From positions 1-23,387 of IMG/VR virus record IMGVR_UViG_3300027797_000147: DNA of 23,387 nt. One strand, written 5' to 3'. The notes below the pieces were generated by a model. The model saw only the letters and a list, made by a program, of their open reading frames with translations. It ran no database searches and was not told the origin of the DNA. The DNA is from a virus. Below, one piece after another: positions 2,918 to 6,263 of this stretch. The translations under genes were made by a program, and so were the position numbers. Numbering within the stretch: position 1 is the first letter of the stretch; each line of letters starts with the position of its first letter.

Positions 2918-3055
2918 TTACTCTATGTACATGCTAGGCAAGTATGCCTTGCATCTGTTACAAAATAGGTAAACCTGTCCAGTATAGGGATCATTCTCAG
3001 CTGTTAGTGTAGATATAGCATGTCCTATTATTTTGCAGATCAGGTAATTAATCAT
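2918..3055 (-). CDS. zinc-knuckle microprotein (45 aa)
   Basis: 45 residues starting MINYLICKIIGH. Cys7 and His12 form a CxxxxH pair; a second half reads PYTGQVYLFCNRCKAY with a CxxC at residues 33-36. Together C, H, C, C could bind one zinc. The ATG overlaps the end of the upstream gene by eight bases, and the stop lies at the edge of the gene-free region. It is clearly related to the 42-aa peptide at 9326-9454, which strongly supports it as real. Function unknown; similar small Cys/His proteins are common in actinophages. Confidence 0.75.
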   Translation of the reverse strand: MINYLICKIIGHAISTLTAENDPYTGQVYLFCNRCKAYLPSMYIE

Positions 3056-3341
3056 TCTTGCTCATATCAAAGGTATTAGATTCCATCTCTTGATAGAAAT
3101 ACTTCTTGCCTAACTCTATTAGATCCTTTAGTCCTTGGGGTTCTAATACGTATTGTATTGATTCCCCGCCCTTTTCGAGCTTAAGTGTGACGACATAGAC
3201 GTCATGTTCAGGGTTATGCTCGTATGTGGCTATACCAATGGGAGATAGATCTATTACGTTCTCTATCCCAGCATCCTCTAAATCTCCAGGTTCTGGAATT
3301 TCAGATTGTTTAATTATATCTGATATTAGGACTTTCTTCAT
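3048..3341 (-). CDS. hypothetical protein (97 aa)
   Basis: 97 residues, MKKVLISDIIKQSEIPEP onward. A GTG four codons earlier (3353) is open, but ATG 3341 is preferred because it overlaps the upstream stop as ATGA and TTTGGAG precedes it, with a rather long gap. The central part (VYVVTLKLEKG) looks like beta strands; the C-terminus is helical. No family recognised. It sits inside an operon of zinc-ribbon microproteins but has no cysteine itself, so it may be their scaffold or partner. Confidence 0.75.
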   Translation of the reverse strand: MKKVLISDIIKQSEIPEPGDLEDAGIENVIDLSPIGIATYEHNPEHDVYVVTLKLEKGGESIQYVLEPQGLKDLIELGKKYFYQEMESNTFDMSKND

Positions 3342-4493: not shown

Positions 4494-5317
4494 ATTTTTC
4501 TCCAAACTGATCCGCCGCTTGAGATACTCAAACACTTAAGGCTTCCAATGCCCTTGAACTCAAATACTTTTCCAGGAAGAAAACAAGGGTTACCTTCTGC
4601 ATAAGAAAATATGTTAAATGGTTCTAGAAACATTTCCTTCATTTTATAATAATATTCACGCTCTCGTTGCCAATCGCCAATACACGAATCCATATGATCT
4701 TTCTGCTCTTGCTTTGTGTAACGATACGTTCCAGACTTGTACTCCTCACCAACTCTTGCAGTGTAAGTATTTCCCGATTTTGTTACAGTAGCAACATAAC
4801 TACCAGTTGGATATGTATAGCTAAAACTTTTTAATGGTTTACAGTTATGCTTTGGAGAAATGTAGTAGTCTTTATAAATCCTATTCCACTCTTTTAATTG
4901 TCCTTCAACTGTTGTGTCCATAGATTTAAGATTTCCTAAATAAAAATTATAGTAACTTGACATAGTGTCTTTGTAGTAATTGTCATTGTAATATCCTTTA
5001 TCATTTGGGCACTTATACCCAAAAAAATGTGTTAAGCACTTTAGTGTCCAAATACTGTAATCTTTTGATGTAAAAACAGCAGTAGGAACTGCATACGTCA
5101 TTACTTTTGCATAATTATACTTTTCACAATCTTGGTAGTTGTTGTCCCCACCGTCCCATTTAAAAACTTCAAGCAATAGGTTATCTACATTTGTTGCACA
5201 GGGTGCTGTTGCTTTATATTTTGCTACCATTTGATCTATAATCTGATCGTTAGCCTGGGCTGGGGTAAATCCAACTGAAAATAAAACTAAAGCTAGAATA
5301 AAGGAAATCTTTTTCAT
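4490..5317 (-). CDS. secreted Cys- and Tyr-rich protein (275 aa)
   Basis: A classical signal peptide (Lys-Lys start, hydrophobic core, AQA cleavage site near residue 22) precedes a mature domain very rich in Tyr, Lys and Asn. I count eight cysteines in the mature part, enough for four disulfides, as expected for an exported protein. It has a ribosome site (AAAGGAT) and a TTGACT-17-TACACT promoter. I recognise no enzyme motif. Possibilities are a superinfection-exclusion or surface-masking protein, or a toxin-like factor; none is supported beyond export. Confidence 0.8.
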   Translation of the reverse strand: MKKISFILALVLFSVGFTPAQANDQIIDQMVAKYKATAPCATNVDNLLLEVFKWDGGDNNYQDCEKYNYAKVMTYAVPTAVFTSKDYSIWTLKCLTHFFGYKCPNDKGYYNDNYYKDTMSSYYNFYLGNLKSMDTTVEGQLKEWNRIYKDYYISPKHNCKPLKSFSYTYPTGSYVATVTKSGNTYTARVGEEYKSGTYRYTKQEQKDHMDSCIGDWQREREYYYKMKEMFLEPFNIFSYAEGNPCFLPGKVFEFKGIGSLKCLSISSGGSVWRKI

Positions 5318-5367
5318 ATCGATCCTTTGTTTAAATACATTGTCCGCCTGACCCTGTATATACTCTA

Positions 5368-5396
5368 AGTGTACTATATATTGGTGGGCTAGTCAA
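5368..5396 (-). promoter_or_regulatory. promoter of the secreted Cys/Tyr-rich protein
   Basis: TTGACT (5391-5396) and TACACT (5368-5373) lie 17 bases apart on the minus strand, about 50 bases ahead of the ATG at 5317. The -35 box overlaps the final codons and stop of the zinc-finger gene (ATT GAC TAG). Confidence 0.7.
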
Positions 5397-5523
5397 TAGA
5401 CTTTTTGCCCGCCTGATTCTCATGGTATTGCATATGAAAGTCATATAGCTGGTGTGTGACCGCACAAAAACATATGGGGCAATGTGTGATCCATTGGGAC
5501 TTATCCTCCCAGTGCTTACTCAT
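5389..5523 (-). CDS. C2H2-type zinc-finger microprotein (44 aa)
   Basis: 44 residues starting MSKHWEDKSQW. CPIC (residues 15-18) and HMQYH (residues 30-34) form a Cys2-His2 pattern, CxxC-x11-HxxxH, close to a classical zinc finger. The ATG lies two bases after the last base of tRNA-Arg, and an in-frame TGA sits just upstream, so this ATG is the first possible start. There is no proper ribosome binding site. Translation may depend on tRNA 3' processing leaving a nearly leaderless mRNA. DNA or protein binding is inferred from the finger alone. Confidence 0.7.
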   Translation of the reverse strand: MSKHWEDKSQWITHCPICFCAVTHQLYDFHMQYHENQAGKKSID

Positions 5524-5524
5524 G

Positions 5525-5595
5525 CTTCAGGTGAAGGAATCGGACCTTCATTGTCGGTTTCGGAAACCGCTCTACGACCACTATAGGAACCTGAA
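5525..5595 (-). tRNA. tRNA-Arg (anticodon CCG)
   Basis: 71 bases fold as a tRNA. The acceptor TTCAGGT/ACCTGAA has seven pairs, the D stem CTAT/GTAG encloses a GG loop, and the T stem GAAGG/CCTTC is perfect. The anticodon loop TTCCGAA gives CCG, reading CGG. Odd points: the anticodon stem has a G-A mismatch at 27-43, the T loop is TCCGATT (C at position 55 instead of the near-universal T), and the first pair is T-A. CCA is not encoded. It is probably co-transcribed with the gene ending at 5601. Confidence 0.8.
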
Positions 5596-5616
5596 AAGGC
5601 TTATAGTGCCTTTTTC
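5593..5616. repeat. inverted repeat spanning a stop codon and the tRNA-Arg 5' end
   Basis: GAAAAGGC (5593-5600) and GCCTTTTTC (5608-5616) can form an eight-pair stem with one bulge. On the minus strand the stop codon of the gene at 5601 is in the loop, and the distal arm reaches two or three bases into the tRNA. It could be a weak terminator or a fold competing with the acceptor stem. Confidence 0.55.
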
Positions 5617-5702
5617 AGCTTCTTCATTGCTCTATTAAACTTTAAGTACTTAATTGGGTTCTTCCACCATTTAAGTGGAAGCTTTACCTTCTTCTTTGTC
5701 AT
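5601..5702 (-). CDS. 33-aa basic peptide from an in-frame internal start
   Basis: Inside the membrane-protein gene, the sequence CAAGGAGATAAC-ATG places a consensus AAGGAG five bases before an in-frame ATG. The product, MTKKKVKLPLKWWKNPIKYL plus 13 residues, is about one third Lys/Arg with a WW pair, resembling a cationic amphipathic peptide. The SD is stronger than that of most full genes here. It may be a distinct nucleic-acid- or membrane-binding peptide, or the true gene if the membrane part is translated separately. Confidence 0.5.
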   Translation of the reverse strand: MTKKKVKLPLKWWKNPIKYLKFNRAMKKLKKAL

Positions 5703-5942
5703 GTTATCTCCTTGTAAGTGTATTTCATTTACTGGTTCTTTAGACCAGTGTATGTAAGATCTAATATAAACTGCTCCGTATGCTATTGCTGCAAGAATAA
5801 ATCCGTACTGCTCAGTAGTAATTGCATACACAGTCCATAGACATTCATTTACTAATAATACAAGCCAAGCCCATATGACTTTACGTCCTACAAAAAATGT
5901 TCCTGTTACGCCAATGGCTGCCAATACATATGACCAATACAT
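5601..5942 (-). CDS. PnuC-like small membrane protein (113 aa)
   Basis: Residues 1-68 contain three hydrophobic helices rich in Trp and Tyr (about 4-19, 22-42, 47-62). This resembles the short transporter-like membrane proteins seen in actinophages; similarity to the PnuC nicotinamide riboside transporter is only in general character. The remaining 45 residues are cytoplasmic and strongly basic. The ATG overlaps the preceding stop (TAATG). A perfect internal ribosome site lies in frame before Met81, so the basic tail is probably also made separately. Confidence 0.75.
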   Translation of the reverse strand: MYWSYVLAAIGVTGTFFVGRKVIWAWLVLLVNECLWTVYAITTEQYGFILAAIAYGAVYIRSYIHWSKEPVNEIHLQGDNMTKKKVKLPLKWWKNPIKYLKFNRAMKKLKKAL

Positions 5943-6034
5943 TATAAGTTTTCTTGATCTATCTCTTCAGTTAAATCCAAGTCTTTTATGTCGCCTAAAT
6001 CAAAGTATGCTTCAAAATTATCTAAGATACCCAT
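5942..6034 (-). CDS. acidic microprotein (30 aa)
   Basis: MGILDNFEAYFDLGDIKDLD and ten more residues; highly acidic and amphipathic. CCAAGGAATAAG upstream is a good ribosome site and the stop overlaps the next start (TAATG). Only one base separates it from the upstream stop at 6036. Its acidity next to the very basic 33-residue peptide downstream is notable, but no interaction can be shown from sequence. Confidence 0.6.
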   Translation of the reverse strand: MGILDNFEAYFDLGDIKDLDLTEEIDQENL

Positions 6035-6035
6035 G

Positions 6036-6263
6036 TTACTTATTCCTTGGAATTAGTGATTGAGGTCCTTCTGTACCAAAGATAGACTTTGCAATTGGTA
6101 CACAATTAGGTACCTTCTTGCCGTTCTTATCTTTCATCCCCAGCTGCTTGTATCCTCGCCAGCAGGCTTTCTGGATGTTATCCCAATTGTCTTCCTGCTC
6201 ATTGTCGGATTCGTATCCCTTTGAGATCTCTTCATCTGTTAATTCAATATTGTTGTTATCCAT
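6036..6263 (-). CDS. conserved phage-type small protein (75 aa)
   Basis: The C-terminal half, CWRGYKQLGMKDKNGKKVPN followed by CVP, is a motif I recognise from many phage small proteins of unknown function (CW-GY-G-K-NG-PNCVP). The preferred start is ATG at 6263, four bases after the upstream stop; a frame reaching back to 6317 is open but would overlap the upstream gene by 50 bases. The N-terminal part is acidic. Role unknown. Confidence 0.75.
   Translation of the reverse strand: MDNNNIELTDEEISKGYESDNEQEDNWDNIQKACWRGYKQLGMKDKNGKKVPNCVPIAKSIFGTEGPQSLIPRNK

Follow-up and report, generated by a model that had tools for sequence, protein, structure and literature searches.

A phage tRNA-Arg gene that abuts the start codon of a microprotein gene suggests tRNA punctuation of a leaderless mRNA

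In mitochondrial tRNA punctuation, the excision of tRNAs from a polycistronic transcript sets the 5' ends of the mRNAs, which carry little or no leader. In actinobacteria (Mycobacterium, P. acnes and Streptomyces), leaderless mRNAs with a 5'-terminal AUG and no Shine-Dalgarno (SD) sequence are translated. Such mRNAs are common in mycobacteria (PMC5741613), where a 5' AUG or GUG is necessary and sufficient for leaderless translation and where leaderless initiation has been defined with RTG exactly at the 5' end (PMC4633059). In E. coli, the MazF endonuclease generates leaderless mRNAs after transcription. Here we describe a viral tRNA-Arg(CCG) gene that ends next to the start codon of a microprotein gene and that, judged from its sequence anatomy, would work like tRNA punctuation. 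It differs from the mitochondrial system in belonging to a bacteriophage with a bacterial host, in involving single junctions rather than a whole genome, and in having a presumed cut that possibly falls after C74. Like the actinobacterial leaderless mRNAs, the predicted transcript would begin at its start codon, and eight other genes of the same phage have the -10/start geometry of leaderless transcripts; however, the actinobacterial 5' ends come from transcription initiation and carry a triphosphate, whereas the one proposed here would come from processing and carry a monophosphate. As with MazF, an endonuclease would create the leaderless mRNA, but without toxin or stress, with the tRNA as the cutting signal and with a 5' phosphate instead of a 5' hydroxyl on the proposed product.

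The window, by which we mean the whole stretch of DNA analysed, is a 23.4-kb fragment of an IMG/VR virus. It encodes a WhiB-like protein and a dNMP kinase that, among cultured phages, is best matched by Streptomyces phages, and these two genes point to an actinobacterial host. Among cultured phages, no DNA match to the window or to the junction was found, nor any match to the microprotein. The minus strand reads ...CACCTGAA-G(5525, discriminator)-C(5524)-ATG(5523-5521), with a gap of exactly one base between discriminator and ATG (Table 1); ARAGORN gives the tRNA as 5595-5524, since it counts C74. As in tRNA punctuation, the tRNA directly abuts the open reading frame (ORF) on the same strand. 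A TGA lies two codons upstream in the microprotein frame and no other in-frame start precedes the conserved core, which fixes the ATG at 5523. The best SD pairing in the 20 nt upstream is -0.6 kcal/mol, as expected of a leaderless mRNA. The sequence and ARAGORN thus bear out the tRNA end and the ATG position of the initial annotation, and its further claims, that CCA is not encoded, that the TGA bars an earlier start and that a proper SD is lacking, are confirmed, with C74 nevertheless encoded.

Table 1. Features at the tRNA-Arg/microprotein junction of the window.
Feature	Position	Strand	Description	Support
tRNA-Arg(CCG)	5525..5595	-	71 nt to discriminator G (5525); CCA not encoded	ARAGORN, covariation
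C74, sole base between discriminator and ATG	5524	-	presumed 3' processing site (before or after C74)	sequence
44-aa putative zinc-binding microprotein ORF	5389..5523	-	ATG at 5523, stop TAG 5391-5389	conserved family, pS>>pN
33-aa basic ORF (MTKKKVKLPLKWWKNP...)	5601..5702	-	TAA 5 nt before tRNA	same cassette; own SD AAGGAG 5713-5708
PnuC-like small membrane protein ORF	5601..5942	-		Pfam PF04973 1.9e-6; phrog_2421 6.5e-24, residues 2-75
Promoter-like element TTGACT-17-TACACT	5368..5396	-	overlaps microprotein ORF end	

The ORF behind the tRNA is, by its pattern of substitution, a real gene, conserved and under purifying selection. An alignment of 25 homologues has 15 invariant columns, including C15, C18, C20, H30 and H34; mean pS was 0.70 and mean pN 0.12 across 60 distinct homologues, and over the first 35 codons the two closest viruses sharing this junction show only synonymous changes relative to the window, 6 in one and 5 in the other. 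Relatives, located by neighbour and profile searches of viral contigs, are encoded on 109 viral stretches, and no homologue was confirmed in 84,980 prokaryote genomes (one per species). The description of the product as a C2H2 zinc finger stands as far as its candidate ligands are concerned, with C15, C18, H30 and H34 (C-x2-C...H-x3-H) invariant in the 25 sequences; this motif is its sole support, the comparison with Pfam and PDB having given no significant match. An AlphaFold2 model, built without metal, consists of two helices with a mean pLDDT of 79. In four relatives (L032:911-1498, L049, L050 and L052), the ORF immediately behind the tRNA joins the microprotein in frame to a glutathione-peroxidase-like protein. 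Five other homologues (L028, L033, L034, L035 and L039) have TTG or ACG at the usual start position, and L033 has an ATG one codon upstream.

The cloverleaf was not recovered when the precursor was folded by minimum energy (z -0.27), and covariation was therefore used instead. Across 33 distinct variants of the tRNA-Arg, 99.4% of paired cells hold and 7 pairs have changed on both sides; the covariation score was 0.180 against 0.067 +/- 0.008 in shuffles, a value reached by 0/500 shuffles. By this covariation, tRNA-Arg(CCG) is a genuine, structure-constrained tRNA, as a punctuating element should be. Position 55 of the T loop is a near-universal U. In the T loop of this tRNA (TCCGATT; 5525-5595 and homologues), most versions have C55 and a few have U.

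A -10 element that ends 6 nt before a start codon is the geometry of transcripts beginning at the A of the ATG. Among 48 plausible gene starts of the window, chosen manually from its list of ORFs, 8 are preceded by a -10 hexamer at exactly this distance (0.37 expected, P=3e-9). These minus-strand starts (3831, 8745, 10049, 15269, 18385, 18929, 19501 and 21410) are predicted to give leaderless primary transcripts, and leaderless mRNAs appear to be normal in this phage. The microprotein start is not of this ordinary, transcription-made type, because no -10 lies about 6 nt before it: the hexamer at -12..-7 is TTCACC. No sigma-70-like promoter serving this start was found upstream on the minus strand. 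The sole promoter-like match in 5250-6100 (shuffles gave 2.9 on average) is the TTGACT-17-TACACT element, which presumably serves the next gene (5317-4490). A hidden promoter or SD for the microprotein start was rejected on the same pairing energy and lack of a promoter match. With no leaderless promoter at the start, the 5' end of a leaderless microprotein mRNA would have to arise by processing.

Where the cut would fall depends on C74. In the related loci, each of the 73 non-redundant tRNAs with an identity other than Arg-CCG encodes this base, 63 with C74 only and 10 with the full CCA; a motif-based count made without ARAGORN gave C74 in 109/109 tRNAs, the Arg-CCG members being partly selected on that C. 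In silico changes of C74 leave the tRNAs detectable by ARAGORN. In P. acnes (PMC3848588) and in S. coelicolor (PMC4681348), the cut in CCA-encoding tRNAs falls between C74 and C75. A cut of this kind would produce an exact 5'-AUG at the junction in the window, and the C-AUG site of the initial annotation may thus lie one base early. Against this, the C74-C75 cleavage is known for CCA-encoding tRNAs, and the CCA-less tRNAs of S. coelicolor are cut a few nucleotides downstream (PMC4681348), which in the window would fall inside the start codon or ORF. We infer that the phage host would cut CCA-less tRNAs after C74. The enzyme need not be tRNase Z, because P. acnes has no obvious one (PMC3848588).

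We consider it probable that 3' maturation of tRNA-Arg creates a leaderless microprotein mRNA, in a phage version of tRNA punctuation. The microprotein gene, with neither a ribosome-binding site nor a promoter of its own, would be co-transcribed behind tRNA-Arg(CCG). Endonucleolytic 3' maturation, most likely just after C74 as in reported actinobacterial tRNAs, would then release a 5'-monophosphorylated mRNA starting with AUG, or with C-AUG if the cut follows the discriminator, giving a predicted leader of 0 or 1 nt, and this mRNA would be translated as a leaderless one. The initial annotation, which proposed such processing, had named two findings that would speak against it, the lack of a conserved protein in this frame and a primary transcript start between tRNA and ATG. 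The frame has 25 aligned homologues, pS is far above pN in the family, and the gap offers neither room nor a -10 element for such a start. Processing is the best explanation for the lineage of the window, and it applies less generally to relatives that have alternative routes to initiation.

The most serious competitor, which we nevertheless judge unlikely, is that gene packing alone could account for the tightness, the tRNA merely happening to abut the ORF, with an uncut co-transcript translated by inefficient, SD-independent internal initiation and processing playing no positive role. Many genes of the window overlap or abut, and its tRNA-Asn and tRNA-Lys are likewise 1 nt apart. However, a folded acceptor stem at -2 should block 30S loading, and the distribution of start codons behind other viral tRNAs speaks against packing. 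For 470 unselected viral tRNAs, we compared ATGs opening at least 60 codons with control triplets. At 0-3 nt after C74, 21/52 ATGs opened such frames against 14/146 control triplets (P=3e-6), and at 11-25 nt the counts were 84/212 against 80/632; a dip lay between them at 4-10 nt (14/63), though its contrast with the 0-3 nt range is weak (P=0.04). The two peaks fit two modes, leaderless and SD-led.

The C74-ATG arrangement is, on these sequence comparisons, wider than the initial annotation supposed. Among the matches listed, 76 unique viral R-C74-ATG junctions were not followed by another tRNA, and 48 of them opened ORFs that reach 40 aa or more, compared with 7 of 47 R-C74-AGT controls (Fisher P=1e-7). 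Neither a strict SD nor a read-through ORF accompanied 38 of these 48 ORFs, and 2 had a -10-like hexamer in the leaderless position, again among the matches listed. The ORFs included known families (uracil-DNA glycosylase, UDG, 1.5e-28; HD_4; glucosaminidase; DUF4326; gp3 packaging) and one PnuC-like family that aligned from residue 1. Three homologous pairs keep the C74-ATG junction, with pS of 0.70-0.84 and pN of 0.13-0.17. A pattern search for a tRNA end followed by ATGANNAA returned mostly unrelated matches, and the annotations of Streptomyces phage Jada over 1-50 kb contained no tRNA abutting a CDS start. We found no report of a tRNA-end/start-codon arrangement in phages or bacteria in the open-access journal literature.

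Packing is further opposed by one of the sampled C74-ATG junctions, that of the cluster L mycobacteriophages, which are cultured on M. smegmatis mc2155. A 57-aa gene (gp105 in Lolly9, gp107 in Whirlwind) starts with GAC-ATG immediately behind tRNA-Pro(TGG) in Snenia, Whirlwind, DuncansLeg, Lolly9 and Krypton555. This site is occupied by one or the other of two unrelated tRNA-Pro genes (51% identical when aligned), and the junction is exact in 5/5 phages, having been kept through tRNA exchange. The 57-aa gene has pS of 0.32-0.55 and pN of 0.015-0.16. By this comparison, the constraint in cluster L follows the tRNA end and not the tRNA sequence. The locus resembles the window in its exact C74-ATG, its conserved small protein and its lack of an SD, and differs in tRNA isotype and in protein; the gene is annotated as unknown and the junction passes without comment in the papers searched. 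The annotations of Snenia and DuncansLeg extend the gene into the tRNA, and those of Lolly9 and Whirlwind begin it at the tRNA end.

Relatives of the window bear on a less likely alternative, translational coupling, in which ribosomes translating an upstream ORF would cross the unfolded tRNA, terminate where the microprotein begins and reinitiate there. All of the intact tRNA-Arg(CCG)/microprotein pairs found have a gap of 1, 3 or 4 nt between discriminator and start codon, and these spacers (C, CTT, CTA, CTG, CTTA or CATA) put the microprotein in differing frames relative to the tRNA between lineages. The pairs fall into three classes. Class I, with GAAG-C-ATG and neither an SD nor read-through, comprises the window, L038 (= L105 = L106) and L029/L030 (= L107/L108), and the sister viruses of the L038 and L029 group therefore do keep the tRNA-ATG junction, a check that the initial annotation had proposed. 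Upstream in class I lies the 33-aa ORF with its own SD and a stop 5 nt before the tRNA; the genes beyond differ, and L029 and L038 keep the start and SD of this ORF beside different upstream genes. In class II, a gene ending IGLWEDQ(W/F)LSK... stops just before the tRNA, and the junction reads GGAG-C(TT/AT)A-RTG, the acceptor end resembling an SD. In class III (L003, L004, L058, L111, L112, L126, L130, L152, L229 and L243), a zinc-ribbon-like ORF extends across the full length of the tRNA, its stop falling at +1 or +8 of the microprotein start.

Class III fits coupling, and microprotein genes that lie away from a tRNA are nearly always joined to the ORF upstream by stop/start coupling; L147, which lacks the tRNA, is coupled in a similar way. 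Since this coupling away from the tRNA is nearly constant, the gene apparently lacks an initiation site of its own and seems to rely on what lies upstream, a stop codon or, in class I, the end of the tRNA. In class I, nothing but the tRNA end is available for initiation, and the ATG stands exactly at C74-A: in the window, as in L029 and L038, every upstream ORF ends short of the start, with the closest stop 5 nt before the tRNA. The PnuC-like ORF of the window also terminates ahead of the tRNA, which excludes its coupling to the microprotein start. A read-through ORF across the window tRNA was rejected because of the in-frame TGA and because spacers of 1, 3 and 4 nt shift the frame between lineages. 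For the proposed processing, the other classes set a limit, as relatives with 3-4 nt spacers have a read-through ORF or an SD-like acceptor end, so that processing need not be obligatory for every tRNA/gene pair. Leaders of 2-3 nt may also work less well, because mycobacterial leaderless initiation was defined with RTG exactly 5'-terminal.

Several arrangements near these loci were observed in addition. In the window, the PnuC-like ORF continues in frame into the 33-aa one, which is standalone in relatives, representing either a fusion or a nested start. In class III (for example L004:571-810), the last ~25 codons of the ORF are the tRNA sequence, one sequence having apparent tRNA and protein-coding roles. 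In L116 (~1433-1503), only a 3' tRNA remnant is left; it encodes the last residues of the upstream ORF, GPIPSPGA, and the microprotein is still coupled through TTAATG. In L007:2311-2410, L018, L021, L220, L221 and L225, a tRNA-Arg is followed by a conserved 9-codon frame, xFETQ[RI]DFE, that meets the next gene at its terminal TAATG; the tRNAs of L007 and L018 have an encoded CCA, and there the 9-codon frame starts CCATG. On the minus strand of L262, and in L120 near 3040-3060, a tRNA-Gln-like gene with a GGGGGAG acceptor end meets the start of a 71-aa protein at GC-ATG, and this junction is a second one of its kind in a related phage.

Two further alternatives would need no cut. A promoter inside the tRNA, making a separate short-leader transcript, is improbable: a TATAAT-like hexamer does occur at tRNA nt 11-16 in many variants, but it varies (TATAGT, TATAAT, TATAAC), sits in the D arm under tRNA structural constraint and would start transcription about 50 nt upstream without an SD, and no promoter-like match lies upstream of the start on the minus strand. 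An SD hidden in the acceptor strand and used on the uncut precursor can practically be dismissed for the window, where CTGAAGC-ATG pairs at only -0.6 kcal/mol with a spacing of 1-2 nt and the motif is base-paired within the tRNA, although CTGGAG-C(TT/AT)A-RTG pairs at about -5.6 kcal/mol in several class II members and 10/48 C74-ATG ORFs elsewhere, among the matches listed, have an SD-like acceptor end.

Returning to processing at the tRNA end, we tentatively suggest, at a little under even confidence, that tRNA-punctuated leaderless genes are a widespread, unrecognised mode of phage expression, especially in actinobacterial phages, in which one cut would make both a tRNA end and an mRNA 5' end and would tie protein expression to tRNA maturation. 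If true, this would extend mitochondrial tRNA punctuation to bacteriophages and provide a source of monophosphorylated leaderless mRNA that needs no promoter or ribosome-binding site. It would also explain genes that sit exactly on tRNA ends and change the annotation of their start sites. The cluster L phages on M. smegmatis mc2155 offer a cultured model that makes the mechanism directly testable. Some phage tRNA genes would then have a second role, as expression elements.
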